From Caulobacteraceae bacterium (GTDB lineage: Bacteria > Pseudomonadota > Alphaproteobacteria > Caulobacterales > Caulobacteraceae), in the NCBI GenBank assembly GCA_947452365.1, contig CANGCO010000005.1, positions 1 to 64,000 on the forward strand: a DNA stretch of 64,000 nucleotides, read 5' to 3'. The notes beneath the pieces were generated by a model, which made no database searches, was not told the origin of the DNA, and saw nothing but the letters and a program-made list of their open reading frames with translations. Made by a program: the position numbers and the translations under genes. This document shows, in pieces, positions 42,368 through 64,000 of this stretch (position 1 is the first letter of the stretch; each line of letters starts with the position of its first letter).

Positions 42368-42419
42368 TTGCTGAGTTAATTATCTCGTTCTGGGTTTTCA
42401 ATATAGTGATTGAATAGGG

Positions 42420-43163: not shown

Positions 43164-43237
43164 TCTATGGCCAAACCAAGATGGTCAAGGCCCCTGACGT
43201 GCGCACTAGGGTGCGCGCGCCAGGGCGCGGATTCCAC

Positions 43238-43909: not shown

Positions 43910-43921
43910 TTTAGTTTTCCC

Positions 43922-44797
43922 CTAGTAAACTTGAATCGGTTTGGCTGTAGATTTGGTAGGGTTCTGTTTTCCAGAATTTGTAACCTGTGGCGGCGGTGTC
44001 TTAAGCACCCACAAGCCTCGCTCTGCCCCGCGCATGACAAGCTCAACAACGGCCCCTTCAATGGCGGTCTTGACAGCACGCGTATTGGCCTCGTTTTGCG
44101 ACGTGCCAGCCTCTGTCTCCAGCGTCCGGGTCGCGCTGTCGAAGAATTTGAACATGGTCAGGTCAGAACCGGTCGAGAGCACGGTTTTTGTAACCTGAAC
44201 ATTAAGCAGGACCTCACCGGTCGAGGTCGATACGGCCCGCAAGGACACGGTCACCTGATCCTTGCGATACTCGGTCGAGGCGCCTATACCCAGATAGCGG
44301 GCGCCAGCACCGCCGGTAGAGATATTGCTATCATAGCCGATAATGCCGCCTTGCAAGATCAGGCCGGCAAACAGCATGGGGTCGAGCTTGTTCGACTTTT
44401 CGCCATCATATTCGTCGCGCGTTTGACGGACAATTTGGCGTTCCTTGGCCAAATCATCGATGCGGTTACGTTCAACCACACGAAAGTTTCGGCCATGCCC
44501 GGCGTTTTTTAACGCATCGATCAAGAGGGCTGTGCCGCCCTGGGTCACGGCGTTTGAAAAGCTCGCAGCCCCGTCCCGGTCCTTGCGCTGCCCCGTAAGG
44601 TCTGGAAAATCATAGACGGCCACAATCGGCTGGCGCTCCATCTCCGGCAGATTGACCAGACTATCGAGCACGGGCCGGTCCACAACGGGCCGGTTTTTGG
44701 CGGTCAATTCCAAGGGCGGCGGCGGCGCAGAACTGCATCCGGCCACAAGCACCAAGCCCAAAAATGCGATTAATGTCTTGGCCCGGGACGACATCAA
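43922..44797 (-). CDS. csgG: Curli secretion channel lipoprotein CsgG
   Basis: Lipobox VAGCSS, IVAVYDFPDLTGQRKDRDG, FRVVERNRIDDLAKERQIVRQTRDEYDG, GIIGYDSNISTGGAGARYLGIGAST. Confidence 0.92.
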   Translation of the reverse strand: MMSSRAKTLIAFLGLVLVAGCSSAPPPPLELTAKNRPVVDRPVLDSLVNLPEMERQPIVAVYDFPDLTGQRKDRDGAASFSNAVTQGGTALLIDALKNAGHGRNFRVVERNRIDDLAKERQIVRQTRDEYDGEKSNKLDPMLFAGLILQGGIIGYDSNISTGGAGARYLGIGASTEYRKDQVTVSLRAVSTSTGEVLLNVQVTKTVLSTGSDLTMFKFFDSATRTLETEAGTSQNEANTRAVKTAIEGAVVELVMRGAERGLWVLKTPPPQVTNSGKQNPTKSTAKPIQVY

Positions 44798-45240
44798 AAC
44801 TTGAACGCTGCTACGGGTATGATGATTTCGGTTAGTCCGCCGGCGCCATCATCAATCGATAGCTTAATTTGATCGAGGGTTTTCTCGTATGAGATTGTAT
44901 TGCCGTCTAGATTAAAGGTTCCGCTGGTTGAATCGCCTGAAAATAGGTTTTCGGTTAATTGTTGAGCCAGTTGGGAGTATATTCGCGACTGAAGGTTTGT
45001 CGTAAATTTGTTTAGTATTGAATTTTTTTCCTCTAGTGCCTTAGCTTTCAGGTCGGATTCAAGTTTTGTTTGAATTTCTTTTTTTCTCGTCATTTCTGTC
45101 GAGTGGAGCGCTAGCCAGTAACCGCCTGTGCCCTCCTTACTGAATGAGGGACTGGCAAATTTGTGCACTATGTCGGATGCGTTGGCCGGTTCAGCCACAC
45201 CCAACAACACAATTAAAGATAGTATTTTAAAATTTTTCAT
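44794..45240 (-). CDS. csgF: Curli assembly protein CsgF-like
   Basis: Signal peptide, ASDIVHKFASPSFSKEGTGGYWLALHSTE..., ATGA overlap with csgG. Confidence 0.8.
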   Translation of the reverse strand: MKNFKILSLIVLLGVAEPANASDIVHKFASPSFSKEGTGGYWLALHSTEMTRKKEIQTKLESDLKAKALEEKNSILNKFTTNLQSRIYSQLAQQLTENLFSGDSTSGTFNLDGNTISYEKTLDQIKLSIDDGAGGLTEIIIPVAAFKF

Positions 45241-45689
45241 GACTGTTTTCAGAAAACTCAACGTTACCGTCGGCCGGTTAGGTGTTATTTTATTTAATGA
45301 AAAATAACAACTGATTTGAAATGAATAACCTAATCTTTAACGCCTATAAATTTAGCTCCATTTAATCGAGTAGATCGCTTTACGTTACTTATTCAAATTT
45401 ATTGATATGAGGTTTATATTTAAAATTCAGCCATAAAAAAATTTCAAACGGACTTGAAGGTTGTAATGCATGATTACAAGGCTGTCATGATAAAATTGGA
45501 AAATAAAAATGATATTTTATGGTCATATTCTTTGTAATCAAGTGGTCGTGGAGGGATCAATATTTATCACACAGCAGAAATGTAAGCCAATTTGCACCAA
45601 TATCGGCATTGTTGCGCCTACGGATATTTCTAAAACAAGGTTTTGTATTGATGTCCTCGATATAGATTGGGTTAAACCCCTTAGAGGGG

Positions 45690-46523
45690 TTAGGGCTTAA
45701 CAAACGGGTGCGTATAATTGACGGCTGTCGGCCAGGGTCCGCTCACGCAGAAATGGGATGTAATCTCTCCAGCATCAAACATATGGATCATGAAGCCAGG
45801 CGGCTCTTCGGTTAAAATCTCCCGGCCGTCGGGCACCCGCATATCGACCGGGCTTAGGTCGAGTGTGAGTTGTATGGATGTGGCCGGGGATACGGTGACG
45901 AGGCTGTTGGCAAACCGACGCACAAATGCGCGATGAAGGTGTCCGGTCGTGACAGCGCATACCTGACTGTGTTGGCTTAGGATTCTATCGAGGCGGAGAA
46001 TCCATTCTGCGCTCGGGTCTGGGTCCATCCATCTTATCCCGCTCGCAATCGGCGGGTGATGCAGAGCGATCAGGGTTGGCGTGCCTGGTCGATCCGTTAG
46101 GGTTTGAACAAGCCATTCGGCGCGTTGTTCGCAAAACGCACCACCCTCTCGACCCTCATCGAGCGTGTCGCATATCACAATCCGATACTCTTCGAACTCA
46201 AGCGTGTATTGAATGAAACCATGTGAATCCGATACAATATTGGGCGCGGAAAACTGTGATAGCGCGGCCAATCGATTGTCGTGATTGCCAACACCCAAAT
46301 AGATTGGCAGGTCTGTTTGCGCGAGTATGGCTTTAAGGGCCGCATATTCCTCGATGCGTCCACGATCGACGAGATCGCCTGTGGCAATGATGGCTAGGGG
46401 GCGAGGGCGCAGGGCTTCAATAGACCTTAAGGTTTGATGCAGACGATCTCTATTGCGGGCCTGATCTAGGGGGGCTTCAGACGTCGTAATATGCAGGTCA
46501 GTAATTTGCGCGATCGTAAACAT
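45690..46523 (-). CDS. Calcineurin-like metallophosphoesterase, CpdA-type 3',5'-cAMP phosphodiesterase
   Basis: AQITDLHIT, ATGDLVDRG, VGNHDNR, ALHHPP, TGHLHRAF motifs. Confidence 0.85.
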   Translation of the reverse strand: MFTIAQITDLHITTSEAPLDQARNRDRLHQTLRSIEALRPRPLAIIATGDLVDRGRIEEYAALKAILAQTDLPIYLGVGNHDNRLAALSQFSAPNIVSDSHGFIQYTLEFEEYRIVICDTLDEGREGGAFCEQRAEWLVQTLTDRPGTPTLIALHHPPIASGIRWMDPDPSAEWILRLDRILSQHSQVCAVTTGHLHRAFVRRFANSLVTVSPATSIQLTLDLSPVDMRVPDGREILTEEPPGFMIHMFDAGEITSHFCVSGPWPTAVNYTHPFVKP

Positions 46524-46810
46524 GTACCAACTCCTAAACCTTCGCCTCAAACCGTGAAGGGGATTCGGCGCTTATAGTCAAAATTCGCCAGTAAAACGCC
46601 CAGATTCCAGACCTCGTCATGAACAAAAGGACTGGGTCGCGGCCATGCAATGCCCGATTTTCCAAGCTATATAGCCGGTTTATGAAGGTTTAATGGATCG
46701 CGGCGAGTACTGGCGAAGGGTAATCTGGCGGTTGTGTCAGTCCAATGCGAAACTGCCTGCGCTTGGGGGAGTGAAGGCAGGGCGCTTCTGGCCCTAGGCC
46801 AAGAGGGGTT

Positions 46811-49284: not shown

Positions 49285-49513
49285 TTGTATCGCCGCGAGC
49301 ATAATGTCAGGTCCTAGGCGCTTGGTGCCACGCGTATTTACCGCTCCCACACCTAATCTCAGCCCACATGCTTTTACAAGTCCATATTTGAGAGATATCC
49401 CAATTATCCATCCGGCCCACCTATAAACTTGCTTAAAATCCAACCCGCAGGTGCGGCCAGACCAATGCGAAAGTGTCTGCGCTTTGCGGATCAAGGGCAG
49501 GGCGCGTCTGGCC

Positions 49514-50100: not shown

Positions 50101-52155
50101 CTACAAGCCCTCGCAAACATTTTGCTCTGAACTGCCCAGAAACGGTGCCACAGGGCAGCTGGCATAACGCAGGCGAACCCCGCTGCCGATCGGAACCACG
50201 ATATTGTCAGCGCGCCGCGCCTTTGGTGCATTGCTAATCGAGCCAACGCGTAGGGCGCCATTGTTCAAACCAAGGAAGCTGACCATGTCGTCCTGGTCGA
50301 TGCCATCCCCCGAAACCCCGATAGCGCCGACCATGGTTTCACCGCGATAGATGGGGACGGCGCCCGGGAAAATCTGAATGCCATTGGCCAGTCTGCGCTG
50401 GCCGGTTGGGGCGTCTGGAAGGCCGGTACATTGGGTGCCAGTGTCATTCACGATGCCAAGGCTTCCCCGAACATGCAGGGCATGCTGCAAAAGATTAGAC
50501 TTGATGAGTGCTACCTGCAGGCCGGTCGCGAAGGGATTGAAATCTGCGATGGGGCGAGACAAGGGGCCATTGGGTCGTCCAAGTTCACCATCGGGAAAAT
50601 AAGGCCGCGCTAGATTTGCGATTGATCGCGCGCCAAACGCATACTTGCCTGTAAGCGCATCGGGGTCGTTTAAGAAGGTCTTGAACCGCTGTGCAAAGAG
50701 CGGAACTTCTGCGTCAAGCGTATCATTCAGTTGCTGTTCGGCTTTCGGATTTGCAAAAAAGGCGACGGTGCGCGCCTTTTGTACGGATACATCTGTGCCA
50801 AAAACAGGCGCATCGGGCGATCGGACCAAGCCCAGCACCTTGCCATAACTGTCGACAATGCTGATGGTCATCTGCGCGTGGCTGTCCAGTGGCCTGCGGA
50901 TTGCGCCGCGGGCCTTGGCCATAACGCGGTAGGCCTCTTCCAGAACGGTTTGAACCTCAGGCGCGCTTAAGGCCTGACCGACGTCAGCCTGGTCCGTACC
51001 GGCTCGGATTGGGTAACGATTATGACCACTGCCATCGGTCAGAACAAAAGCGTCGGGAAAGCTGAATTCGGCTGTGCTCGAACGACGATAGCCGCTGGCC
51101 TCGGTACCATAGGCAGCGCCACCACGCAGTGTCCCATCGGTGTAGCCTCGGACCGCAATCAGATTACCATATGTCGCATCGACCGCTGAAAATCGGGTTT
51201 CCAAGGGGTGTAAATTGCCGACCGTTGCATCACTATAGCGCAGCAAGGTTCCGCTCAGGGATATCCTGTCGGCTGTGATGGTGTCGGGGGCGGCAAAGCC
51301 TTGCGAACCTGCCAAGGCGATTTTTTCTTCGGCATCACTGTCGATATCGAGAATATTGGGGTCAAACCCATAGTCTCCATCTGCCATGACCCCAACCCCA
51401 CCGACGACGACGCCGTTCTTGTATAGGGGAAATCCACCCGGGTCGGCCGCTAGGCCAAGCGGGGAGCGTTTGGGGCCAATCAAGGCGTCAGAAGCTGCGC
51501 CTGCGGTATATCGGGTATTAAGGTCGGAGCAGGGCAATTGGCTGAATTGGGCGCCGAATAGTGGGCCGCCCTCTTGGCCAACCGAGGTCGGGGAGGGGGG
51601 GAAGTGTTGTTGCACAATCTGGCTGGCTGTGCGGGTTGAAAAAGCATTGCCACTGCTCGAGATATAGGCGCCGGTTACCGCCTTGGAAATTGCGCCCATT
51701 GTAGCGTTCACATCTATGCCCTGCGCATCGATATCAACGTCGTTAAAGACATACGTCCCTGTTAATCGGCTGGTCGTCATCGTCGTGCGCGCACCCGTCA
51801 TCTGAAACACGGCCAGTACATTTCCGACTCGGTCAGTTACAGCGATGATTGCGGGGGAATTGAGAGCATGTGCCTCGCCAACGGCTTGGGCAAGGACGCG
51901 CTCTACATCAAGGGTCGATAAGGACTCCTGAGCGGGCGTAGCATAAACTGCTGTTGTGGTGGATACGGGGCTGGTCGTTCCTCCGGCGCTTGAAGCTCCA
52001 CTGCCCCCACCACCACCGCACCCGGCAAGCATAAAAAGTGATAAACCAAAGATCAGAACGTTCCACTTTTGTGGGGTTTGAAATGGCCGGCACCGGTGTT
52101 CGGAATGGGGTTGAGTCCAGCTTCCAATTAGGGGTGTATTAAACATTTTAAACAC
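50101..52155 (-). CDS. Lipoprotein with two GlcG/HbpS-like domains
   Basis: Lipobox FMLAGCGGGGGSG; domain 1 LSTLDVERVLAQAVGEAHALNSPAIIAVTDRVGNVLAVFQMTG, domain 2 LSAPEVQTVLEEAYRVM...ISIVDSYGKVLGLVRSPDA...GETMVGAIGVSGDGIDQDD. Confidence 0.78.
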   Translation of the reverse strand: MFKMFNTPLIGSWTQPHSEHRCRPFQTPQKWNVLIFGLSLFMLAGCGGGGGSGASSAGGTTSPVSTTTAVYATPAQESLSTLDVERVLAQAVGEAHALNSPAIIAVTDRVGNVLAVFQMTGARTTMTTSRLTGTYVFNDVDIDAQGIDVNATMGAISKAVTGAYISSSGNAFSTRTASQIVQQHFPPSPTSVGQEGGPLFGAQFSQLPCSDLNTRYTAGAASDALIGPKRSPLGLAADPGGFPLYKNGVVVGGVGVMADGDYGFDPNILDIDSDAEEKIALAGSQGFAAPDTITADRISLSGTLLRYSDATVGNLHPLETRFSAVDATYGNLIAVRGYTDGTLRGGAAYGTEASGYRRSSTAEFSFPDAFVLTDGSGHNRYPIRAGTDQADVGQALSAPEVQTVLEEAYRVMAKARGAIRRPLDSHAQMTISIVDSYGKVLGLVRSPDAPVFGTDVSVQKARTVAFFANPKAEQQLNDTLDAEVPLFAQRFKTFLNDPDALTGKYAFGARSIANLARPYFPDGELGRPNGPLSRPIADFNPFATGLQVALIKSNLLQHALHVRGSLGIVNDTGTQCTGLPDAPTGQRRLANGIQIFPGAVPIYRGETMVGAIGVSGDGIDQDDMVSFLGLNNGALRVGSISNAPKARRADNIVVPIGSGVRLRYASCPVAPFLGSSEQNVCEGL

Positions 52156-52369: not shown

Positions 52370-53755
52370 ATGTCGTCGGCTAAGCAGGGGATCTCTGTAA
52401 ATCAGAAGAATAGTCAACTGACCTTTTTTTGCATGTTATTAGCCATTTGCATCGTCTTATTCAGGACCGAGCCAGGTTTTGCAGCGCCCACGATCCATGA
52501 AGGCGTAGCATCTTGCTCAGGCTCCGAATGCCACGCCCGCCAGGCGTCCACCGGACTCGTTGTGCGCCAGAATGAGATTATCACGTGGCAAAGCCCCTCA
52601 AGCGCGGCGGGCAGTCATAGCCGCGCTTGGCAGGTGCTTAATGGCCGCCGGGCCAGTCAGATTGCGCAAAAACTAGGATTAGAGTCGGCTGCACGAGCGC
52701 CGCAATGTCTTGGATGCCACACCGACCCGATCGCTACGGCGCAACGCGGTGCGCGCTTTCAGATATCAGACGGCGTCGGCTGCGAGGCCTGCCATGGTGG
52801 CTCAGGTCAGTGGCTATCAAGCCATCGGGCGGTCGGTGCCAGTCATAGTAACAATGTGGCGCGCGGCATGATTGCACTCGATCAGCCCAAGCAACGGGCT
52901 GCGGTTTGTCTAGACTGCCACATGGGAAGCCAAGCCCCGGGCCAGTTTGCAAGTCATAAGATTATGGCGGCAGGACACCCGCGGCTGTCTTTTGAGTTGG
53001 ACCTCTTTACTGAATTACAGCGCCATCATGATGTCGATTCCGACTATGCGGCCCGTAAATATGTTGCCGGCGGCGTGAAGACCTGGGCAGTGGGCCAGTC
53101 CCTGCTCGTTTCGCGGGCGCTTGGGCTTTACGTATCGAGCACCAAGGCGCGGGCAGGAAGCTTTCCCGAGCTGTCATTTATGGACTGTCACGCTTGCCAT
53201 CGTCCGATTTCGGATGATCCAAGCCTGTCGCCCAAGGCCGTTGCAAATAGTGAGCGCGGCACCGCGATCGATACACCCAGTTTCAATGATCAAAACATGA
53301 TCATGCTATCGGCGGCTATCCGCAGTGCTGTGCCAGAATACTCCAGTCGTTTTGAGACCCAATCGCGCGCACTCCATTTCGCCATTGCGTTTGATCAAAA
53401 GTCCGTCGTGCCAAATGCCGAACGATTGCTAGCGACCACCGAGGCCGTCACCGATGCCTTGGCTGGGCATGTATTCGGCGACAAGCAGGCTCTTGGGATT
53501 ATTCTAGATATTACTGACGGTGCCCAGTCGGGTCGGTTCACGGACTATGCGGGCGCCACCCAAGCGGTCATGGCCATCGATACCCTTTTAAATGCCGAGG
53601 CGGTAAATGGCCGTATTGATGCTCAATCGCTTAAGGCCCTTCGCACGCAAACCGACCGCGCCTACCAGGCGGTGCGAGATTCTCAGGCCTTTCGGCCTGT
53701 GGAGTTTCGCCAGGCCTTGGCTCAGGTGGCGCAGGGCGTGAGGAAATTGCTGTGA
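52370..53755 (+). CDS. Periplasmic/exported multiheme cytochrome c
   Basis: Signal peptide; CLGCH, CEACH, CLDCH, CHACH (4 canonical) plus CSGSECH (CX4CH). Confidence 0.88.
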   Translation: MSSAKQGISVNQKNSQLTFFCMLLAICIVLFRTEPGFAAPTIHEGVASCSGSECHARQASTGLVVRQNEIITWQSPSSAAGSHSRAWQVLNGRRASQIAQKLGLESAARAPQCLGCHTDPIATAQRGARFQISDGVGCEACHGGSGQWLSSHRAVGASHSNNVARGMIALDQPKQRAAVCLDCHMGSQAPGQFASHKIMAAGHPRLSFELDLFTELQRHHDVDSDYAARKYVAGGVKTWAVGQSLLVSRALGLYVSSTKARAGSFPELSFMDCHACHRPISDDPSLSPKAVANSERGTAIDTPSFNDQNMIMLSAAIRSAVPEYSSRFETQSRALHFAIAFDQKSVVPNAERLLATTEAVTDALAGHVFGDKQALGIILDITDGAQSGRFTDYAGATQAVMAIDTLLNAEAVNGRIDAQSLKALRTQTDRAYQAVRDSQAFRPVEFRQALAQVAQGVRKLL

Positions 53756-53847
53756 TGAGCATCCAGACCAGGGCGTTTGCAGCGCATATACAGTTCCGAT
53801 TAATGCTGGTCATCGATCGCGCGTTAGCATGGGCGGGCAGATAGGCC

Positions 53848-55662
53848 ATGCGCGCGTTTCGCCATATTCTTCTAGGCTTGAGCCTGTCATGCATGCCCGT
53901 GCTGGTATGGTCAGCGCCTCTAAGCGCAGAGGTCACTGCGGACCCAACCGCTTCTGCTCATGAAACTGACACGACAGAGGCACCCGTTCGACGTGCGCCG
54001 GGTTGGCGGCCAACCTATCCAGCGGCCATTATCCAGGTCAATCCAGATGCCGTAGCGACCCCACCCCCTGAGGCTTTTCCTGTCGATGAATTGCCCATGC
54101 CTGATCGTTGGCGGATTATCGAGGCCTTAGGCACACATGCGCGCTGGTATGACCCATACAACCAAAACACCTTAAAGGGTGATCGGCCCTTGCCAGGCCT
54201 TGAGGACTGGTTTTTTGCCTTCAATGGCGTTTCAGACTCGGTTTTGGAACTGCGATCCTTCCCTGTTCCTGTCGGTGGCCCAACGACCGAAAACCCGAAT
54301 AGCCTAGATACGTTTGGACGCTCTGACAGTCTTGTCGCCTCCCAGACAATCTTACTGGGGGCGTCCCTTTTCAAGGGATCAACGGCCTTCAAACCGCCCG
54401 AGCTTGAGTTCCATATCGCGCTAGGGCTCAATGCAAATTATGCTGTGATTAGCGAGCGCGGCCTGCTGTCTATCGCGTCTTCAAGAGGGCCGAGGCGGTA
54501 TGATCAGTTTTTGGCACTGCAGGAAGCCTTTATCGATTACCACCTGCGTAATGTGTCCGATCGCTACGATTTTGACTCGTTAAGGATTGGAATCCAGCCG
54601 TTTTCTTCTGATTTTCGCGGCTTTTTGTTTCAAGACAACCAGCTTGGCATAAGGCTTTTTGGCAACCGCGATAACAATAAATTCCAGTACAATCTGGCAG
54701 GGTTTGTATTGGTCGAAAAAGATACGAATTCAGGTTTGAACGATGTCGGTCAAGCCTTGCGCAAGGACGCCTTTCTTGTCGGCAATCTTTACCGCCAGGA
54801 CTTGCCCGTGCCCGGCATAACCTCGCAAATCACACTGATCTATAATGCGAACCGTGAGGGGCGTGAGGTCCATTATAATTCCAACGGTTTCCCGGCCAGA
54901 CCCGCCCTGATCGGAAACTTGCGGCCGCGCGATTATGACATTGTCTATTTGGGTTATAATCTCGACGGCCACCTTGGCCGCATCAACCTGACGGGCTCGA
55001 TTTATGGCGCGCTCGGTGAGGATCGTAATTCCATCTTTACCGATAAGGCGGCTGACGTCCGCGCCTGGTTTGCAGCCCTTGAGCCATCCATCGATCTTGA
55101 CTGGATCCGAGTGCGTTTGTCGGGCCTGTACGCTTCTGGTGATCATAATCCGTATGATCATAAAGAAACAGGCTTTGACGCAATTTCTGAAAACCCGCTC
55201 ATTGCCGGTGCAGATACCAGCTATTGGATCCGTCAATCTGTGCCGTTTGTCGGCGGTGGACGTGGTGTCTCTATCAATGGCCGCAATGGTGTTTTGAATG
55301 CTCTAAGGTCTTCCAAGGAGGAGGGGCAGTCTAATTTTAACAATCCCGGAACGGTATTGTTGGGGGCAGGCGCAGATCTGGATCTAACGCCCAATCTTCG
55401 CGTGAGTGGCAATCTGAATCATATCTGGTTTGCAGATACGGCGGTCATCCAAGCCCTGAGGCAAGAAGGATCGATCCCAAACGAAGTCGGTTGGGACTAT
55501 TCGGTGGCTGCAATCTGGCGGCCCTTAATGACCCAAAACATTGTATTCCGGCTTTCAGCCGCTGCTCTTGATCCGGGTGCCGGGTTTAAGGACCTGTTCA
55601 CCGATCGCGCGCGATCGGGGCGTTTTTACTCAGTCTTGCTCAACACCGTTTTGGCATTCTAG
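53848..55662 (+). CDS. Predicted outer-membrane beta-barrel protein
   Basis: Signal peptide (MRAFRHILLGLSLSCMPVLVWSAPLSA), alternating amphipathic strands, C-terminal Phe (VLLNTVLAF), lies between two multiheme cytochrome genes. Confidence 0.75.
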   Translation: MRAFRHILLGLSLSCMPVLVWSAPLSAEVTADPTASAHETDTTEAPVRRAPGWRPTYPAAIIQVNPDAVATPPPEAFPVDELPMPDRWRIIEALGTHARWYDPYNQNTLKGDRPLPGLEDWFFAFNGVSDSVLELRSFPVPVGGPTTENPNSLDTFGRSDSLVASQTILLGASLFKGSTAFKPPELEFHIALGLNANYAVISERGLLSIASSRGPRRYDQFLALQEAFIDYHLRNVSDRYDFDSLRIGIQPFSSDFRGFLFQDNQLGIRLFGNRDNNKFQYNLAGFVLVEKDTNSGLNDVGQALRKDAFLVGNLYRQDLPVPGITSQITLIYNANREGREVHYNSNGFPARPALIGNLRPRDYDIVYLGYNLDGHLGRINLTGSIYGALGEDRNSIFTDKAADVRAWFAALEPSIDLDWIRVRLSGLYASGDHNPYDHKETGFDAISENPLIAGADTSYWIRQSVPFVGGGRGVSINGRNGVLNALRSSKEEGQSNFNNPGTVLLGAGADLDLTPNLRVSGNLNHIWFADTAVIQALRQEGSIPNEVGWDYSVAAIWRPLMTQNIVFRLSAAALDPGAGFKDLFTDRARSGRFYSVLLNTVLAF

Positions 55663-55672
55663 GGGCTGAAGA

Positions 55673-58600
55673 ATGATCAAACAGGGCGCGATAAAAATCG
55701 GTGTGGCGGGAATCTTGGCGGTCGTATTGGCCTGCTTGAGCCCAAGCATATTAGAGGCCGGCGAATCTGAGCGGCCTGTCGCCCGGCATTGGATAACGGC
55801 CCCCCCCGCGCCAGTTACCCAGACGCCAGAGCAGGGGGCTGCCAAGAGTGCGGGCTGTATCAGCTGTCACACCTCAACCGATGCCGCCTCCATGCATAAT
55901 AGCCCCAGCGTCGTAATCGGTTGCGCCGATTGCCACGGCGGTGATGCACACATCGTGGCACCGGCGGGCTTGGCAAAGACTGATCGGGCCTATCAGAAAC
56001 TACTGGACACGGCCCATGTGTTGCCGCGCTTCCCGCATTCTTGGGGCTATCCCAACTCGGCCAATCCTAAACGCAGCTATACCTTGTTGAATAAGGAATC
56101 GCCGGAATTTGTGCGGTTTGTGAATCCGGGGGACTACCGGGTCGCCAGGGAGAGTTGCGGTGCTTGTCATCTTGAACTCATCCAGGCGGCTGAGCGGTCG
56201 CTGATGGCCAATGGTGCCATGTTCTACGGTGGCGCGACCTATAATAATGGCGTAGTGCCGCTCAAAAACTATGTTTTGGGCGAGGCCTATACACGCGACG
56301 GCAGGCCTGCCTCGGTCCTGTCTCCTGGGAGCCCGGCCGGAACGATTACGCCAGATGAGGCCAAGCGCGGGGCCATTGCCCGATTGTTTCCCTTGCCGAC
56401 TTGGCAGGTGGTCAAGCCAAGTGACGTATTCCGTGTTTTTGAACGGGGCGGTCGTAACAATAATAGCCAGTTTGCTGAGGTTGGACTGCCCAATTCCACA
56501 GGTCAGACACAGAGGCTAGAAGAGCCCGGTCGGCCAGACATACATCAATCCAATCGTGGCCCGGGCACCGGGCTTCGTGTCGCGATTCCTGTGCTGAATA
56601 TTCACAAAACCCGGCTGAATGACCCGTTCATGTGGTTCATGGGTACAAATGATCAGCCCGGCGATTATCGCTCCTCAGGTTGCACGGCCTGCCATGTGAT
56701 ATACGCCAATGATCGTGAGCCGCGCCATAGCCTCGGTTATTCGCAATATGGCCGCGATGGGCAAGGTGCCAGCAGTGATCCAACCATCGACAAGTCGGCT
56801 TCTGGGCACCCGATCAAGCACGCTTTCACTCGAGCAATACCGACTTCACAGTGCATGAATTGCCATATGCACCAGCCCAACATGTTCCTGAATAGCTATC
56901 TTGGCTACACCATGTGGGACTATGAATCCGATGCGCCCACCATGTGGCCGGAAAAGCAGCGCTATCCGGATGCCGAGGAAATGCGCAAGGTCCTGGATCG
57001 CAATCCGGAGGGCGCAGCGCCGCGAGGTAAATGGGCAGATTTGGATTTCCTGCGCGAGGTCAGTGATCATAATCCAGAGCTAAAAGATACACAGATGGCC
57101 GATTATCATGGTCATGGATGGAACTTCCGGGCCGTGTTTAAGCGCGACCGCGAAGGCAATCTTCTTGATGCCATTGGTGATGTTGTCTCACCGAACGACC
57201 CTGAAAAATGGCGCAAAGCCGGGGAGGGCCAATTCGTTGCCCCAGGCACTAACCCGGGCAAGACCGTTCATATGATGGATATTCATGCCGAGTTAGGCCT
57301 GCAATGCGCCGACTGTCATTTTGCACAAGACAGCCACGGCTCGGGCCTGATCATCGGTGAAGTCGCCAATGCCGTCGAGATCGGGTGCAAGGATTGCCAT
57401 GGATCGACAAAGGCCTATCCGACCTTGAAGACATCAGGCCCAGCCGCGCGGCCGGGTGGCACGGATTTGGCATTACTGCGTAATCCCGACGGCAAGCGAC
57501 GGTTTGAGTGGCAAGAGCAAAATGGCCGTCAGGTGCTTATCCAGCGCTCGATTGTTGATCCCAATCGCGAATGGCGTATCCATCTCGTGCGCGACTCCGT
57601 CGATGCCGCCAGCCCCGACTTCAACCCGGTCGCCGCGCGCGCCAAGCTAATGTCTCGATTAAAGCCGGGCATAGCGCCAATGGCTTGGGGGCCCGGTGTC
57701 GAGGACAAGGATCTTGCCCATGGCGATGACAATATGGCCTGCTTCAGTTGCCATACATCCTGGACGCCGTCGTGCGGGGGGTGCCATCTGCCGATTGAGG
57801 CCAATTGGCTAACCAAGTCGCATAAGTATGAGGGCGAGACCGCCCGCAACTGGGCCAGCTATAATCCACAGGTCGCCCGCGATGACACCTTTATGTTAGG
57901 TCGCCATTCCGACGGAAAGGACGGCATTATTGCCCCCGTTCGCTCTTCATCGGCCCTGATCCTGTCGTCAACAAACGTCAATCGTGAGCGAATTTATGTT
58001 CAGCAGCCACCGATTTCGGCAATCGGCTTTTCAAGTCAGGCCTTTGCGCCCCACTTCCCGCACACAGTCCGCCTGACGGAAACTAAGAACTGCGCAGACT
58101 GTCATTTGTCTGAGGCCAATGACAATAATGCGGTCATGGCTCAGCTGTTTACCCTGGGTACCAATTTCGTCAATTTCGTCGGTGTGAATGCCTGGGTTGG
58201 TTTGGGGCAAGGGCTGGAAGCGGTTCGGGTCACTGAATGGGATGAACCGCAGTCGGTGATTGGCTCCTATTTGCAGCGCTTTGCTTATCCCGATTTTTAC
58301 CGTCAGCATGTCGAGCGCAATAAGCGCGAGCTTGTCAATTGGGTTCGCCCGGCTGGGACGGATGGCAAGGGCGGGAATGGCGTGCCCGAGGTCTTTAGCA
58401 ATATCCACCAGCCCACTAACGATGCTGTGCATTGCCTGCAGTTGCGGGGCGAATACATGTTTGTCGCCGAAGGGGCCGGCGGTTTTCGCGTTTATGATGT
58501 GGCAAATATTGGCAATAAGGGTGTCTCAAAGCGCATCCTGACCGCTCCGTTCTCAAAACTTGGCCAAGACACACATATTGCTTCGAAGAATGCGACGTGT

Positions 58601-59623
58601 GTTGCCTTGCCGACCAACCAGCCGATTGCGCCGATGCGCAGTACACCGGCGATGCGCGCCGACAATCACGAGCAAGCCTTTCATCCCATCTATAATTATG
58701 CGGTTGTGACAGACGCCGAGGAGGGCCTGATCCTTGTTGATGTGAACACCTTGGCTGATGGAGAGCCGCGCAATAATTTCTTCAAGCGGGCTGTGACCTG
58801 GAACCCCGATGGTGTGCTCAAGGGCGCACGCCATGTGACACTAGGTGGCCATTTTGCCTATATTGCTGCTGATGCCGGACTTGTGGTCGTGGATCTTGAT
58901 GATCCGCTAAAGCCAAGGCTGCTGACGACTATTCCGCTGGTCGATGTCCGCGCCTCTGCGCTGCAATTTAGATATTTGTTTGTCACCACGGCGCGAGGTC
59001 TTGAGGTGCTGGATGTAACGCATCTGGACAGGCCCCGGCCAATCCCGGGCGCCGCGTTTGCTCTGCAGGATGCACGACGGGTTTATGTCGCGCGGACCTA
59101 TGCCTATGTGGCGGCAAAAGGCGAGGGCTTGGTGATCTTGAACGTTACCAATCCAGAGCGGCCGGTTTTGCAGCAACGCGTGACATTTGAGGGACAACTC
59201 AATGATGCCGAGGACGTTGTGGTTGCCTCGACCAATGCCTCATTGTTTGCCTATGTTGCAGATGGGCGTAATGGGTTGAAGGTTGTTCAACTGACCAGTC
59301 CCGATAGCCAAAGGAACTTCTACGGATTTTCTCCCCAGCCTCGGCCTGAGCTAATTGCGTGGGCGAAAACCCCGTCGCCCGCCTTGGCCTTGTCCAAGGG
59401 CCTGGATCGTGACCGGGCCGTAGATGAGGCCGGGGGCCAGATGGCCGTGTTTGGGCGGTTAGGGTCTAGACCCTTCAACCGTCCCGAAATGGAGCGGTTC
59501 TTCATTGATTGGACCGGCGCGCCTTATCAGGTCACCAATAGCCCTAGCTCGGCAGAACTGGCCGCGGGCAGGCGCAAGGACTGGCTGGCCTCGGTTATGC
59601 GTGCCTTCATACCCAAGCCCTAG
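55673..59623 (+). CDS. Large decaheme cytochrome c with C-terminal LVIVD repeats
   Basis: Ten CXXCH (CISCH, CADCH, CGACH, CTACH, CMNCH, CADCH, CKDCH, CFSCH, CGGCH, CADCH); repeats YAVVTDAEEGLILVDVN, FAYIAADAGLVVVDLDDP, YLFVTTARGLEVLDVT, YAYVAAKGEGLVILNVTNPERP. Confidence 0.9.
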   Translation: MIKQGAIKIGVAGILAVVLACLSPSILEAGESERPVARHWITAPPAPVTQTPEQGAAKSAGCISCHTSTDAASMHNSPSVVIGCADCHGGDAHIVAPAGLAKTDRAYQKLLDTAHVLPRFPHSWGYPNSANPKRSYTLLNKESPEFVRFVNPGDYRVARESCGACHLELIQAAERSLMANGAMFYGGATYNNGVVPLKNYVLGEAYTRDGRPASVLSPGSPAGTITPDEAKRGAIARLFPLPTWQVVKPSDVFRVFERGGRNNNSQFAEVGLPNSTGQTQRLEEPGRPDIHQSNRGPGTGLRVAIPVLNIHKTRLNDPFMWFMGTNDQPGDYRSSGCTACHVIYANDREPRHSLGYSQYGRDGQGASSDPTIDKSASGHPIKHAFTRAIPTSQCMNCHMHQPNMFLNSYLGYTMWDYESDAPTMWPEKQRYPDAEEMRKVLDRNPEGAAPRGKWADLDFLREVSDHNPELKDTQMADYHGHGWNFRAVFKRDREGNLLDAIGDVVSPNDPEKWRKAGEGQFVAPGTNPGKTVHMMDIHAELGLQCADCHFAQDSHGSGLIIGEVANAVEIGCKDCHGSTKAYPTLKTSGPAARPGGTDLALLRNPDGKRRFEWQEQNGRQVLIQRSIVDPNREWRIHLVRDSVDAASPDFNPVAARAKLMSRLKPGIAPMAWGPGVEDKDLAHGDDNMACFSCHTSWTPSCGGCHLPIEANWLTKSHKYEGETARNWASYNPQVARDDTFMLGRHSDGKDGIIAPVRSSSALILSSTNVNRERIYVQQPPISAIGFSSQAFAPHFPHTVRLTETKNCADCHLSEANDNNAVMAQLFTLGTNFVNFVGVNAWVGLGQGLEAVRVTEWDEPQSVIGSYLQRFAYPDFYRQHVERNKRELVNWVRPAGTDGKGGNGVPEVFSNIHQPTNDAVHCLQLRGEYMFVAEGAGGFRVYDVANIGNKGVSKRILTAPFSKLGQDTHIASKNATCVALPTNQPIAPMRSTPAMRADNHEQAFHPIYNYAVVTDAEEGLILVDVNTLADGEPRNNFFKRAVTWNPDGVLKGARHVTLGGHFAYIAADAGLVVVDLDDPLKPRLLTTIPLVDVRASALQFRYLFVTTARGLEVLDVTHLDRPRPIPGAAFALQDARRVYVARTYAYVAAKGEGLVILNVTNPERPVLQQRVTFEGQLNDAEDVVVASTNASLFAYVADGRNGLKVVQLTSPDSQRNFYGFSPQPRPELIAWAKTPSPALALSKGLDRDRAVDEAGGQMAVFGRLGSRPFNRPEMERFFIDWTGAPYQVTNSPSSAELAAGRRKDWLASVMRAFIPKP

Positions 59624-59650
59624 CCCGAGGATCTGGACGATATCCTCGGG
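59624..59650. terminator. Hairpin between convergent operons
   Basis: Perfect 9-bp stem CCCGAGGAT (59624-59632) / ATCCTCGGG (59642-59650) with 9-nt loop, no T-run. Confidence 0.45.
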
Positions 59651-59664
59651 ACACGGACCTTGAC

Positions 59665-61575
59665 CTAGGCCTTTGGCCCTGGCGGATGGTCGATTAAATG
59701 GATTGGCACGGGTGACTGCCTCAAGGTTCCGGTTGTGTGAAACCCATGACAGGTCTCGCAATCCCCAGACGCCGCCTGAGGCTGATGGGCCTTAGTTTTT
59801 CCGTGGCAATTGGCACAGACCTTGATCGACGGCGTCAGGACGTCGCTGGCATTGTCTGAGAGCGTCGCCTTGTGGCAGCTTGCGCAATTGGCCTGACCGT
59901 TTGGGTTTTGGCTGTGGGCCTTAATATTGTGGTTGAAGGCACCCCAGATCAGGGTTCGGTTGCTCACATGTATCGGTTCGAGGCCAATCCCCTGGTTTGA
60001 CCTGTGACAATCGACACATAAGCCGCCTTTGCCAAAGGCTAGGCGAGTACCGGTCGAACCAGGCCCAGGTACCTCTATTGGCGGGGTTGATGCAGCCGAT
60101 GATAACTTGTCCTCGGCACCGGGCCGGTGACGAAGCCATGCGCCTAGGCGTGAGACGATATTGCTCGGGCGATCTGGGCGTCCATTCAACAGAGCAACCG
60201 CCTTTGCGGGATCGCCATGGGGCAGGCTGCTTATGGTGCCATTAGGGGTTGTATAGTTCAAAGCATGGCAGGCGCCGCAGTCGCGTTGCATGTCAATAGG
60301 GCGCATGTCTTGGGCTATGCCTGTCGCTTCATGGCAGGATTTGCAGGTCAATGCCGCCCCATAGCCTTTTTGACGACCGAGCACCTGTGCCATCCGCGTA
60401 ACACCGCCCAATGGCATCATATGAAGTTGGTGGGAAAAAATCAGACCAGAATTGTCGCGCATATCCGCCGAAAGTGCGACCCGCTTCAGCTCAAGCTTTC
60501 CGCCGTCTTGGGTCGCTATAAACGGGCGAAATTGCGGATGCTTGGCCCAGCTTGGCGTATCCACCAGCCGCGTATCGGTCAGACGGGTCTTTAGATTAGC
60601 ATGACAATCTGCGCACGAAATGGTCTGGACTAGGGCCGGAACGGCCCGGCGTGGCGTGGACTTATCGGCGGGCTTGTTAGGTCCAGTCTCTGCGTTGACA
60701 TGTTCGCGATGACAAGATGCGCAGCCATCGGGCGCATGATTTAGAGCGCGATTCATCTTGTCTGATAAGCTGGCGCCCAGCCAGTGACGTGGCGGCATTG
60801 CCGCTAGCCAGCGATCATGGCTAGCATGCTGTTTAATTAGGTTTGGCGCGAATGGACTGCCCAGACCTTTAGACTGTCGAAGCGACCCAGCAAGACTGAC
60901 CTTATCCTGATTGAGGTTGTGGCAACCTAGGCAGGTTTCATCCTGAACCGGGACAAAGGCCTTTTGGTGACAGCTCGTACAGTCCTTATCGAGAAAGGCA
61001 TGGGCTTGAGACAGTGGCCCTGTCGACCATTGGCGGTCAAATTGAACGGGCTTGTTCGTGGCGGCGCGGCTGTGCGCGTGCAAGGTCAGCGCGACAATGG
61101 GCACGATCAAACATGCGAGCAGAACCGAAATGGCCAGCGTCCAGGCCATGGCGCGCTTGCCAAAAATTCCTGCGCCAGGACTGAACAGGGTTGTCTCATC
61201 GAGTTGCGATTCAGCGCCTTGCGATGATTGTCCAATCACCTGGGCAAGCGACACATCGGCTGGGTCTTCGGCTGCCGACACTGTGACAACTTGAGTGCCG
61301 AAACTTATCCGTGACGGGGTTTGCGCATTGATGACGACCTGATGAACCAGTCGCCCGTTGATCTCAAAACCTTGAGGACCTAGGGCCACGATACGGATTT
61401 CTCCGGGCCCGACCTGATCTATGGCGGCATGCCTTAGGCTGGTGGTCAGATCCGTAAGTTGAATGTCACAATCTGAGCCTCGACCGATTGTAATGGTCCC
61501 CGTCTCAAAAATGCGTGTACGGACGATATCGCTGCCACCCGTGCGTTGCGTAGTCTGATGAAAAACAATGCTCAT
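59665..61575 (-). CDS. FHA-domain membrane-anchored decaheme cytochrome c
   Basis: N-terminal FHA (TITIGRGSDCDIQLTDLTTSLRHAAID...GFEINGRLV), one TM (AMAWTLAISVLLACLIVPIVALTL), ten CXXCH (CTSCH, CLGCH, CASCH, CADCH, CKSCH, CGACH, CVDCH, CASCH, CANCH, CETCH). Confidence 0.9.
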   Translation of the reverse strand: MSIVFHQTTQRTGGSDIVRTRIFETGTITIGRGSDCDIQLTDLTTSLRHAAIDQVGPGEIRIVALGPQGFEINGRLVHQVVINAQTPSRISFGTQVVTVSAAEDPADVSLAQVIGQSSQGAESQLDETTLFSPGAGIFGKRAMAWTLAISVLLACLIVPIVALTLHAHSRAATNKPVQFDRQWSTGPLSQAHAFLDKDCTSCHQKAFVPVQDETCLGCHNLNQDKVSLAGSLRQSKGLGSPFAPNLIKQHASHDRWLAAMPPRHWLGASLSDKMNRALNHAPDGCASCHREHVNAETGPNKPADKSTPRRAVPALVQTISCADCHANLKTRLTDTRLVDTPSWAKHPQFRPFIATQDGGKLELKRVALSADMRDNSGLIFSHQLHMMPLGGVTRMAQVLGRQKGYGAALTCKSCHEATGIAQDMRPIDMQRDCGACHALNYTTPNGTISSLPHGDPAKAVALLNGRPDRPSNIVSRLGAWLRHRPGAEDKLSSAASTPPIEVPGPGSTGTRLAFGKGGLCVDCHRSNQGIGLEPIHVSNRTLIWGAFNHNIKAHSQNPNGQANCASCHKATLSDNASDVLTPSIKVCANCHGKTKAHQPQAASGDCETCHGFHTTGTLRQSPVPIHLIDHPPGPKA

Positions 61576-61582
61576 GATCGCC

Positions 61583-62455
61583 TCACCAGTAGAAGAACAC
61601 GCTAACGACGTGCGCCGTCAGGGCTGCCAGCAGACCAAACGTCGCCGGAACATGGATATACAGCCACGCAACCAGCAGGCTGCGGATCTGGATATGGGTC
61701 CGCACCATCTTCAGGACGCTGGCCTTGCGGTCTAATAGGGTTTGAATCTCTGCGAGGATTGGTGCGTCTGTCGCCGATGGCACCGCCCGCGCCAATTGGT
61801 CAAGCGCGGCCCTAGTCTTGCAGTTTGGATGTTGATTGGTCATGCGGCGCCATACGCCCCCAGCGATATTTTTTGGATCGACCGACACTAGGACAATCGC
61901 CGCAAGATCACTGGTCAAGGGGCGCGCAAGGATACTTAACTGGCGGTCTAGCCCAACCAGCTCTTCCACCATTAATTTTTGAGTGACCTCGCCTCGATTG
62001 GCACCTAGGGCGGTTGGCAGACGGACATATACGATTACGCCGTAAATACCGGTGATGATAACGATCATCATAAGGACATAGGCGAGTGTGTGAACATTCC
62101 AGCCAAACTGAAACCCTGTGTGCAGTGTAGCTAGCACAATCAAGGACAGACCCAGATAGACGTGCGCCGAAACCCAGGCCTTGAGCGACCAAGCCCCTGG
62201 TGTCATGGCCCGCTTACGCAGGCCAAGCAGCATCAGCCAAATGATCAACCCCGTACAGAGAATGCCAAGCGTATAGCCATAGGCGGAGCCTCCATTGGGG
62301 TGCGGGCGCACATCAATCAGGGCGTATCCCAATATGGCAATCAGGCTGAGCCCAGCAGCGCGTTTTAGCCATAGAAAATTCTTGTGGCGCAAAAAACTCT
62401 CGTGGTGATCGTTCCGCGTTCGGCGATTGACATTGGTCTTCGGGGGCCTACTCAA
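61583..62455 (-). CDS. Cytochrome-b-like integral membrane protein
   Basis: Hydrophobic helices with His (SAHVYLGLSLIVLATLHTGFQFGWNVH; WLYIHVPATFGLLAALTAHVV); likely TTG start at 62455 in a TTGA overlap with the upstream gene. Confidence 0.72.
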   Translation of the reverse strand: MSRPPKTNVNRRTRNDHHESFLRHKNFLWLKRAAGLSLIAILGYALIDVRPHPNGGSAYGYTLGILCTGLIIWLMLLGLRKRAMTPGAWSLKAWVSAHVYLGLSLIVLATLHTGFQFGWNVHTLAYVLMMIVIITGIYGVIVYVRLPTALGANRGEVTQKLMVEELVGLDRQLSILARPLTSDLAAIVLVSVDPKNIAGGVWRRMTNQHPNCKTRAALDQLARAVPSATDAPILAEIQTLLDRKASVLKMVRTHIQIRSLLVAWLYIHVPATFGLLAALTAHVVSVFFYW

Positions 62456-64000
62456 CGCCTTTGTCCTAGTTGAGTGACGGACAAAAAGTTTTCCGGCGAT
62501 ATGCGGATTGCAGCGCCAGTAGGGCAGGCCCGTACACAGGCTGGGCCGCCATCCTTGCCCTTGCACATGTCACATTTGATTGCGACCTTGCCCGCACTGG
62601 CCGCGCCTTTCTGTTTATGAGCCAGTTTCCATTTTTGGTCGGGTTCACCTGGGCCGGGACCGGCGCCAAAAAGCATCCAGTTTAGCAAGGACGGCTTTGC
62701 CGCAGGCGGGGTATCCATGCGGATCACGTCATAGGGGCAGTTGCGTTGGCAATTGCCACAGCCAATGCAGGTTTCGTCTATGAACACTTCCCCATCCGGG
62801 CCCCGATGAATGGCATTGGCTGGGCAGTCTGTCATGCAATAGGGATGTTCGCAGTGTCGACAGGACGTCGGAACGTGCAATTGCGCATAGGTTTTGCCCG
62901 CTTCCCGATCGAGGCGCGATAGGCCGTCATGGATGTCGGCACAGGCTTTTTCGCAGTTGTCGCAGCCAATACACAGTTTTTCATCGATGAGGAGAACATC
63001 GGTCGCTTCGCCAAGTCCCTGTTCAATCAGGAAACCTGCTACCGAGGAATACATGTCAACGACACTGCCAAATTTGGACTTTTCTTGTTCGATAAACCCG
63101 TTGATTTTACGGCGGGTACTGGCGCTCGCCTCTAGAGTGGCGGCCAATTTGGGCTTGCGCTTCAACAAGTCTTCAAATGTTGACCCGTTGAGCTTTACGA
63201 TTTGGGACTTAACAGCCGCCTTTACGGTGGCGTTGCGCGGCGCATTATCAATCAGCGCCATTTCGCCGACATAAGAGCCAGCGGGCAGGTAGGACAGAAA
63301 GATCGGATTTCCGGCAATCGTGCGTTCGACAACAAGGCTGCCGGATCGGACTATAAAGACGTCATTACTTAATTCGCCTTCGGTGATGATGGCTTGTCCA
63401 GCCCGCACCTCGATCACCTCGGAGGTGGCCAAGATATCGGCTAGGTCTTCTGGGGTCATGCCGGATTTGAAGATTTGCAACAAATGCCGTTCGGTCGTGA
63501 TGCGGTTAATCGCGGCCCTGGCTTCGGGCGAGGTGGCCATGAGTTTGAGTGCCGCAGTCCTCGGAATCTCCATAACAATACTTGGGACCGACGCGCGAAT
63601 AGTGGCGCCGCGTCGGCGTCCCGAAATCAGACCAACTTCTCCAAAAATCGACCCTGCACTAATTGGCACCGTAACCTGGGCATTGTTCGGGTCGATCTGA
63701 ACCAATACCCCGCCATCCGCTATACCAAACAGAGACGATCCAATGGAGTTACGCGCGAATACAACCTCGTCGGCGTCGAAGCTGTGCACCTCTGAATCGA
63801 GCAGGAATTCGCGCATATTCAATGCCGATAGGCCGCTCAGGATCTCGATCTCCGTGCGCAGAAACTCAAGCCACTCCGCTACGGTCCGGTTGCCCGGTAG
63901 GTTTTTAAGTTTCGCTTCCAGAATGGGTTCGTCCGCAGGCTTGAGGGCTGTGTTTCCAGCAATAAACTCAACCACGTCATAGCCCTGGTTCATACAATGC
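62452..64000 (-). CDS. Tandem cyclic-nucleotide-binding domains plus 4x[4Fe-4S] ferredoxin protein (5' end probably outside window)
   Basis: Two cNMP folds (IFGEVGLISGRRRGATIRA; YVGEMALIDNAPRNATVKA), four Cys clusters CIGCDNCEKAC, CRHCEHPYCMTDC, CIGCGNCQRNC, CDMCKGKDGGPACVRAC; reading frame open to window end. Confidence 0.88.
   Translation of the reverse strand, partial: HCMNQGYDVVEFIAGNTALKPADEPILEAKLKNLPGNRTVAEWLEFLRTEIEILSGLSALNMREFLLDSEVHSFDADEVVFARNSIGSSLFGIADGGVLVQIDPNNAQVTVPISAGSIFGEVGLISGRRRGATIRASVPSIVMEIPRTAALKLMATSPEARAAINRITTERHLLQIFKSGMTPEDLADILATSEVIEVRAGQAIITEGELSNDVFIVRSGSLVVERTIAGNPIFLSYLPAGSYVGEMALIDNAPRNATVKAAVKSQIVKLNGSTFEDLLKRKPKLAATLEASASTRRKINGFIEQEKSKFGSVVDMYSSVAGFLIEQGLGEATDVLLIDEKLCIGCDNCEKACADIHDGLSRLDREAGKTYAQLHVPTSCRHCEHPYCMTDCPANAIHRGPDGEVFIDETCIGCGNCQRNCPYDVIRMDTPPAAKPSLLNWMLFGAGPGPGEPDQKWKLAHKQKGAASAGKVAIKCDMCKGKDGGPACVRACPTGAAIRISPENFLSVTQLGQRR

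Follow-up and report, generated by a model that had tools for sequence, protein, structure and literature searches.

How would a locus of multiheme cytochromes in a Caulobacteraceae bacterium move electrons across the cell envelope, and from which source? In characterised conduits such as MtrCAB, electrons are drawn from the quinone pool of metal-respiring bacteria. The window that we analysed, a stretch of 64,000 nucleotides, had been interpreted from its letters alone (the sequence-only reading) as holding a candidate undescribed trans-envelope electron-transfer locus of six genes in two convergent sets, A, B and C on the plus strand and D, E and F on the minus strand. All six genes are present at the positions below, but this inventory missed a seventh, H, which lies outside the region considered there. 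The conserved module consists of seven genes:

50101..52155, minus strand: H, HbpS-like (haem-binding/degrading family) lipoprotein (HbpS-like 1e-21, 3 stretches)
52370..53755, plus strand: A, pentaheme c554-type cytochrome with a predicted signal peptide, probably periplasmic (Cytochrome_C554 8.3e-12)
53848..55662, plus strand: B, predicted outer-membrane beta-barrel, AlgE/OprD-like (structure model, 18 strands)
55673..59623, plus strand: C, decaheme cytochrome with a C-terminal LVIVD beta-propeller (LVIVD 1.8e-19)
59665..61575, minus strand: D, FHA domain, one TM helix and periplasmic decaheme (FHA 7.7e-7; Cytochrome_C7 9e-17)
61583..62455, minus strand: E, 5-TM diheme b-type membrane cytochrome (two WX3HX13H motifs)
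62452..64000, continuing to contig position 64902, minus strand: F, FAD/NAD(P)H oxidoreductase with two cNMP-binding domains and four [4Fe-4S] motifs

What can be read directly from the letters are domains, cofactor motifs, topology signals, gene order and co-occurrence. The order A-H-B-C is kept in all 67 related loci that carry all four genes; relative to this set, the orientation of H is inverted in the window. In distant relatives D, E, F, H, B and C stand together, in full or for the most part, in single directional operons, some of which include A. Among 289 alphaproteobacterial genomes, the LVIVD-decaheme C occurs in 23; F and D each occur in 28, an identical set of genomes that includes all 23 with C (hypergeometric p for C and F of about 1.6e-29 by genome and 2.9e-21 by genus). 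C and F lie at most 15 kb apart in 20 of the 23 genomes, and where F was missing from the retrieved stretch of a C-bearing genome, it was found elsewhere (15/15). Both the A-H-B-C order and the co-occurrence of C with F are far beyond chance. Profile searches and neighbourhood comparison thus established that homologues of C, F and D do co-occur outside the source genome.

The window edge cuts F; the sequence-only reading correctly named its cNMP-binding and four [4Fe-4S] parts and missed its N-terminal FAD/NAD(P)H oxidoreductase domain. The window holds the C-terminal 513 aa alone; the full-length protein on the contig (G000:C5) has 816 aa, with Pyr_redox_3/Pyr_redox_2, two cNMP and four [4Fe-4S] domains, a match to Fer4_11 (PF13247, 4.4e-11) and, in the homologue alignment, 16 invariant Cys and Rossmann motifs. 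With the FAD/NAD(P)H domain, NAD(P)H takes the place of an unnamed iron-sulfur module as the likely electron source; its use is suggested by these motifs. Because a strict cNMP regular expression, which matched 15/21 F sequences at one site and 9/21 at the other, failed among the printed rows on conservative changes beside Glu/Arg (e.g. GST, GEMTL and TAS), we judged the two sites by invariant alignment columns, namely G421, E422 and R431 for one and G546, E547 and R556 for the other. In the source genome, ccm genes adjoin F.

E starts at a TTG codon that overlaps the stop of F, and the mechanically called 327-aa ORF begins too early. Its TM pattern agrees with a 5-TM protein whose motifs are placed as in PCC4 (WX3HX13H on TM3 and TM5, SGXXG on TM4). 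Two WX3HX13H motifs and one [ST]GXXG are present in 20/20 sequences each, an exact match to the published PCC3/PCC4 inner-membrane cytochrome signature, and this diheme pattern upholds the earlier description of E as a cytochrome-b-like membrane protein. E has no Pfam match and hence no profile match to the ferric-reductase domain (FRD, PF01794); we rejected assignment to that domain after hhalign against one FRD protein gave a probability of 0.1, although the His spacing fits. D is, as proposed, an FHA-domain 10-heme membrane cytochrome: its FHA domain is cytoplasmic, its TM helix lies at 147-165, and its periplasmic part has 10 CXXCH motifs; outside the FHA domain, precisely 10 further His are invariant. 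Because the Ser of the phosphothreonine-binding loop is mostly missing among D homologues, a phosphothreonine switch is doubtful, and the suggested control through FHA is weak.

A comprises 461 aa from the invariant M18 of the mechanically called ORF and matches the structure of cytochrome c554 (1bvb, 2.2e-7). The multiheme assignment of A stood, and its count, earlier given as four to five, is settled at five hemes because four CXXCH and one CX4CH are kept in 31/31 aligned sequences. A lipobox is found in 59/63 H homologues. B adjoins A and C, placing a barrel gene beside multiheme c cytochromes. The outer-membrane barrel suspected in this 604-aa protein was recovered by structure prediction as a model with 18 beta strands (mean pLDDT 63.5; N-terminal ~115 residues poorly modelled). 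Its best PDB fold match is AlgE (E 1.6e-16), with OprD/MOMP-like matches too, and MtrB was not among the best 50 fold matches listed. We rejected homology to MtrB/PioB: B has no Pfam match, and PF11854 has no match in the genome.

C, encoded by a gene of 3.95 kb (in relatives reaching about 4.2 kb), bears the 10 CXXCH motifs and LVIVD repeats ascribed to it, and its heme region has 10 invariant CXXCH and 14 invariant non-motif His. The LVIVD propeller is confidently modelled; the model of the heme part (mean pLDDT 51) is not usable. C, which has a lipobox in 0/80 sequences, is probably an outer-surface or barrel-associated unit. Taken together, D, A and C contribute 10+5+10 c-heme motifs, with enough extra invariant His for bis-His ligation. 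The redox proteins assigned to inner membrane, periplasm and outer membrane were thus borne out as such from sequence, and the cluster does not correspond to a characterised soluble reductase/oxidase system. The missing lipobox of C and the AlgE/OprD-like fold of B, which is narrower than the MtrB type, speak against a conduit.

At lower coordinates in the window lie genes for cyclic nucleotide and surface-fibre functions:

39241..41307, minus strand: CHASE2 - class III adenylate/guanylate cyclase (CHASE2 1.5e-37; Guanylate_cyc 4e-19)
41291..45261, minus strand: FecR-domain protein, two curlin-like repeat proteins, CsgG and CsgF (FecR 7.1e-12; CsgG 3.8e-52; CsgF 8.9e-19)
45690..46550, minus strand: CpdA-like calcineurin-type phosphoesterase, putative cAMP phosphodiesterase (Metallophos 8.3e-17)

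A CpdA-like gene is present in all 48 loci with the FHA-decaheme D, and a PLSDB homologue of the phosphoesterase is annotated cpdA; a cyclase is found near the module in 21 of the 54 loci that have about 10 kb on both sides. These neighbours support cNMP control more strongly than the sequence-only reading could know, and together with the motif tests they suggest that F is probably gated by cAMP. The curlin-like repeats were assigned by eye and gave no Pfam hit. In place of curli-type genes, relatives often have a two-partner secretion (TPS) pair near the module (19/54 loci), and fibre/adhesin genes vary by host and are often missing. Our look into the literature on LVIVD with cytochrome, FHA with multiheme, two-partner secretion with multiheme, and CHASE2/FecR returned nothing relevant.

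Five genomes carry F and D without C, and all five encode a different 5-heme cytochrome (p = 4e-6), which stands beside D with an unrelated probable barrel in three adjacent cases (3 checked of 5). This partner of ~600 aa has no match in the source genome G000; its similarity to C or A is confined to heme motifs, and we rejected homology. Nor did B show homology to the barrels of PCC4-like loci, a comparison of three sequences with no authenticated PCC4 porin among them. The persistence of D-E-F in C-less genomes fits an inner module that may be reused with unrelated outer modules. The hosts, among them Sphingobium, Novosphingobium, Sphingomonas, Erythrobacter, Phenylobacterium and Brevundimonas, are for the most part aerobic heterotrophs.

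The claim that the locus is undescribed and unlike the canonical conduits proved too strong: it is not categorically new and is close to PCC4 (He et al. 2017, PMC5566968) and to the group 1 PCCs (PMC13264449, June 2026). PCC4 is described as combining a porin with cytochromes of 4, 5 and 10 hemes, a PF13247 Fe-S protein and a 5-TM protein that bears WX3HX13H on TM3 and TM5 (PMC5566968). On that description, the window shares the diheme-b inner-membrane protein with two WX3HX13H and SGXXG, the PF13247 (subgroup II) Fe-S protein F, the 10-heme D, the 4-CXXCH A and a barrel, and loci G049, G089 and G102, which share A-D-E-F with the window, match the PCC4 inventory of 4, 5 and 10 hemes with porin, IMP and Fe-S protein. 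The three-cytochrome 4/5/10 set is, however, incomplete in the window, where the decaheme C, the unrelated barrel B and the HbpS lipoprotein H take the place of the 5-heme partner; the main text, as available, makes no mention of cNMP or FHA. In group 1 PCCs from cave and groundwater MAGs, a 4-5 kb gene for a large decaheme adjoins one for a porin with about 20 strands, and 7/11 have a ferredoxin-NADP reductase gene nearby (PMC13264449). Compared by published description, C (3.95 kb), B (18 strands) and F resemble this layout, and the two are very probably the same or sister systems, although group 1 PCCs are reported mainly from other phyla and their reductase, inner-membrane cytochrome, lipoprotein and cNMP features are not dissected there (PMC13264449). 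Neither the NAD(P)H-type, cyclic-nucleotide-binding input of the present version nor its exchangeable outer part seems to have been worked out so far.

Likeness to MtrCAB/PioAB/MtoAB is limited to the outer-membrane barrel with multiheme c cytochromes and the decahemes. The source genome has no MtrB_PioB barrel (PF11854), and B, with 18 strands, is not of the MtrB type; the decahemes match MtrC/OmcA models weakly, and A, C and D score far below the cut-off of TIGR03508 and TIGR03507, the models for decahemes of the MtrA or MtrC type. The inner end is an NAD(P)H-type flavoprotein with diheme b, not a quinol-oxidising CymA-type cytochrome. C is partially similar to ExtM of the Geobacter Ext-type conduits (ExtM/ExtN/ExtO models; 3.5e-17), but at 62 bits against a cut-off of 800, with similarity in short heme-motif stretches only. 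NOX/FRD enzymes work on a like principle, in that an FAD/NAD(P)H domain on the cytoplasmic side passes electrons to a stacked pair of b hemes, with two His pairs 13-14 residues apart, whereas the dehydrogenase here is a separate, unrelated flavoprotein with Fe-S clusters, Pfam FRD has no match, and electrons would go to c hemes, not directly to O2 or Fe(III).

On balance, we regard the locus as a probable trans-envelope electron conduit of the porin-cytochrome type that is fed with NAD(P)H from the cytoplasm; the best reading is a PCC4-like inner module with an outer module of AlgE-like barrel and LVIVD-decaheme. Electrons would pass in the cytoplasm from NAD(P)H to FAD and the four [4Fe-4S] clusters of F, then to E, whose two b hemes would span the inner membrane as a stacked pair, and on to D, whose TM helix would keep its ten c hemes at the periplasmic face. 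The pentaheme A would shuttle them to the decaheme C, which would work with the 18-strand B and lipoprotein H at the outer membrane and pass them to an outside acceptor such as Fe(III)/Mn(IV) minerals, humics or quinones, or O2. cAMP would gate F via its two cNMP-binding domains, with CHASE2-type cyclases supplying the nucleotide and the CpdA-like enzyme degrading it. We infer from these parts that they form a complex, that C is exposed at the surface and that cAMP exerts control, and likewise the direction of flow and the acceptor. Outward flow is most likely, since NAD(P)H stands at the low-potential end and the membrane potential does not oppose export.

The same conduit might run inward: an outside donor such as Fe(II) or Mn(II) would be oxidised at the surface, and its electrons would enter via C/B and travel through A, D and E into the quinone pool or, at an energy cost, onto NAD(P)+. 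Inward transfer has been proposed for PCC3 and, by He et al. 2017 (PMC5566968), for the PCC4 of Fe(II) oxidisers and of Hyphomicrobium, and the host genus Erythrobacter includes an Mn(II) oxidiser with PCC3. We nevertheless consider it unlikely, since F ends in an FAD/NAD(P)H dehydrogenase, reduction of NAD(P)+ from Fe(II)/Mn(II) would be strongly uphill and opposed by the membrane potential, the hosts are mostly heterotrophs, and export is favoured for similar clusters in MAGs without carbon fixation (PMC13264449). Metal respiration, for its part, is not known in these hosts, which counts against a conduit.

B resembles the substrate channels AlgE and OprD/MOMP, and C has a well-modelled propeller, no lipobox and more invariant His than its hemes need; these features would suit an outer-envelope reductase for one soluble substrate, comparable to DmsEFAB-type systems, in which C would be the enzyme (propeller or heme active site), B would let the substrate through instead of sheathing a cytochrome, and D-E-F would supply electrons from NAD(P)H. 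Such an enzyme seems unlikely as well, as the cluster showed no catalytic cofactor domain (molybdopterin, heme d1 or copper) and the pairing of D-E-F with an unrelated 5-heme cytochrome and barrel in C-less genomes better fits a general electron supply to a barrel-cytochrome pair. Very improbable, finally, is a role in envelope assembly or iron/heme acquisition, whereby surface reducing power would mature or modify fibres or adhesins, or free iron or heme, with H handling heme. The neighbouring curli (window) or two-partner secretion genes, FecR, cyclases and CpdA and the HbpS-like nature of H agree with it, but fibre/adhesin genes are host-variable and absent near the module in many, while A-H-B-C is constant, and the conserved set contains no iron-transport gene.

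Returning to the NAD(P)H-fed conduit, a bolder version is possible, if speculative: a cAMP-gated, quinone-independent export machine, spread vertically and by plasmids through aerobic Alphaproteobacteria and beyond, in which a single inner module (F-E-D-A) would serve outer-membrane modules that are unrelated and exchangeable for one another, and whose product in air could be mineral/quinone reduction or extracellular superoxide. The seven-gene set appears to be widely conserved in mostly oxygen-breathing bacteria and to connect intracellular NAD(P)H electrically, across both membranes, with the cell surface. This would bring the conduit idea into common aerobic heterotrophs, in a form with NAD(P)H-type input, outer parts that can be swapped and, probably, control by a second messenger. 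Because of their strict co-occurrence, these genes can serve as markers for spotting the system in metagenomes, and because cultivable isolates carry the cluster, gene deletion can directly address why aerobes retain cytochrome conduits in the outer membrane.

The draft genome that holds the window is alphaproteobacterial and 2.6 Mb in size, with the window placed on contig C5. All six genes that the sequence-only reading had assigned to a trans-envelope electron-transfer locus are present in the window, and their layout is that of a porin-cytochrome cluster (PCC):

52370-53755, (+): A, pentaheme c554-type cytochrome
53848-55662, (+): B, 604-aa predicted barrel
55673-59623, (+): C, LVIVD-decaheme cytochrome
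59665-61575, (-): D, FHA domain, transmembrane (TM) helix and decaheme part
61583-62455, (-): E, 5-TM diheme b-type membrane protein
62452 to contig position 64902, (-): F, FAD/NAD(P)H, cNMP and Fe-S protein

The heme counts of that reading were borne out. A has four CXXCH motifs and one CX4CH motif, which are kept in 31/31 sequences, C combines LVIVD repeats with ten CXXCH motifs, and in D an FHA domain and one TM helix are followed by ten CXXCH motifs. Because exactly ten invariant histidines are found in D outside the FHA domain and beyond those of the motifs, full bis-His ligation fits this protein.

F is cut by the end of the window, and contig C5, which runs on, yields a complete protein of 816 aa. 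Its N-terminal part is an FAD/NAD(P)-binding pyridine-nucleotide oxidoreductase (Pyr_redox_3, 5.4e-26), with Rossmann motifs that are conserved among relatives and with YpdA-type as the closest solved flavoprotein structure; no TrxR-type CXXC is apparent in F. Two cNMP-binding domains (1.1e-31) make up another part of the protein, which also has four [4Fe-4S] motifs. In all 20 sequences of E, WX3HX13H occurs twice and [ST]GXXG is present; this is the signature reported for PCC3 and PCC4 inner-membrane proteins, where it was likened to ferric reductase, NOX and cytochrome bc1 (PMC5566968). At the outer end, the predicted fold of B has 18 strands (mean pLDDT 63.5, pTM 0.66), and Foldseek with this model returned AlgE as the best match, followed by OprD/MOMP channels, so that modelling supports the proposed barrel. 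In the model of C the propeller is confident and the heme part is not modelled.

The most economical reading of these proteins is an NAD(P)H-fed electron path to the cell exterior, in which electrons would pass from NAD(P)H through FAD to the Fe-S centres of F, from there through the b hemes of E to D, and from D through A to C/B and the outside. Since this path would start at a low-potential dehydrogenase, electrons most likely run outward.

To which known system the locus is closest was judged by several comparisons. Identity with MtrCAB/PioAB was rejected, as B has no Pfam match, the genome contains no PF11854 match, and MtrA/MtrC-type models score far below cut-off. The locus has the inner-membrane features that define PCC4 but differs from its 4/5/10-heme inventory, and it is, in a comparison of descriptions only, very close to the group 1 PCCs (PMC13264449). 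The view of the locus as undescribed and unlike canonical conduits is too strong, and the locus is best taken as a known kind of system in a new variant form.

A scan of genome contigs for C relatives gave 262 loci, and the best 80 of these 262 come from Caulobacterales, Sphingomonadales and other Alphaproteobacteria, with 64-75% identity. Relatives from outside the family, and from outside the class, have these genes in single operons. When 289 alphaproteobacterial genomes were sampled evenly, F and D were present in the same 28 genomes and C in 23, all within those 28, so the expected co-occurrence beyond the source genome was found (23/23). Where F was missing from the retrieved stretch of a C genome, it was located elsewhere in every case (15/15). 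C relatives also lie on Sphingobium and Sphingopyxis plasmids. Because C is absent from 6/6 drafts of the window's own genus and plasmid copies exist, horizontal spread is suggested, within the limits set by draft incompleteness. Two Sphingobium plasmids of ~1 Mb (L082, L084) carry the complete module, accompanied there by CHASE2, ShlB and a very large secreted protein (~2100 aa, no Pfam match). Beyond the locus, a run of genes on the (-) strand of contig C5 (70328-78034; L001:10328-18034) appears to encode a type IV (VirB/Trb-like) conjugation apparatus, which may be linked to the patchy distribution of the locus.

The five genomes with F and D and without C all carry another 5-heme cytochrome of ~600 aa, which in three of them adjoins D alongside a heme-free protein of ~530 aa that is probably a barrel. 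No homology was found between B and this protein in sequences of three loci, and only one genome contains both C and the alternative cytochrome. F-E-D with A is therefore common to two unrelated outer modules; the arrangement with the alternative cytochrome agrees with the inventory that was published for PCC4 (PMC5566968). The alternative cytochrome occurs in genomes without F and D in 19 of 25 cases and must therefore pair with other inner-membrane modules too.

The conserved set has a further member outside the interval first proposed, the HbpS-like lipoprotein H (50101-52155). All 67 relatives holding the four genes have the order A-H-B-C on one strand, relative to which H is inverted in the window. 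Other neighbours are:

39241-45261, (-): curli-type cluster (CHASE2-cyclase, FecR, two curlin-like repeat proteins, CsgG, CsgF), directly upstream of the cytochrome locus
46943-47590, (-): small membrane protein, adjoining the next gene, outside the conserved set
47587-49494, (-): Vgb-lyase-type propeller protein with carboxypeptidase-regulatory domain and one CXXCH, outside the conserved set
contig C5 64965-69179 (L001:4965-9179), (+): genes reading as ccmF-ccmG-ccmH-ccmI, cytochrome c maturation, just past F and divergent

In several relatives ccmF also adjoins F. Two conserved cNMP pockets, a CpdA-like gene (in 48/48 loci with D) and neighbouring CHASE2-type cyclases (in 21 of 54 fully flanked loci) suggest, at the sequence level, that the system may be controlled by cyclic AMP; the proposed control through the FHA domain is not well supported. 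A second CpdA-like phosphoesterase, 78% identical to the window copy, lies at 69261-70121 (-) of contig C5 (L001:9261-10121), and the two copies on either side of the locus are possibly a duplication flanking an insert. Near the module, relatives have a two-partner secretion pair in place of the curli-type cluster, and these frequent surface-fibre neighbours would fit a biofilm or attached setting. No prior analysis of this system's electron source, regulation or modular outer end was found in the literature searched.
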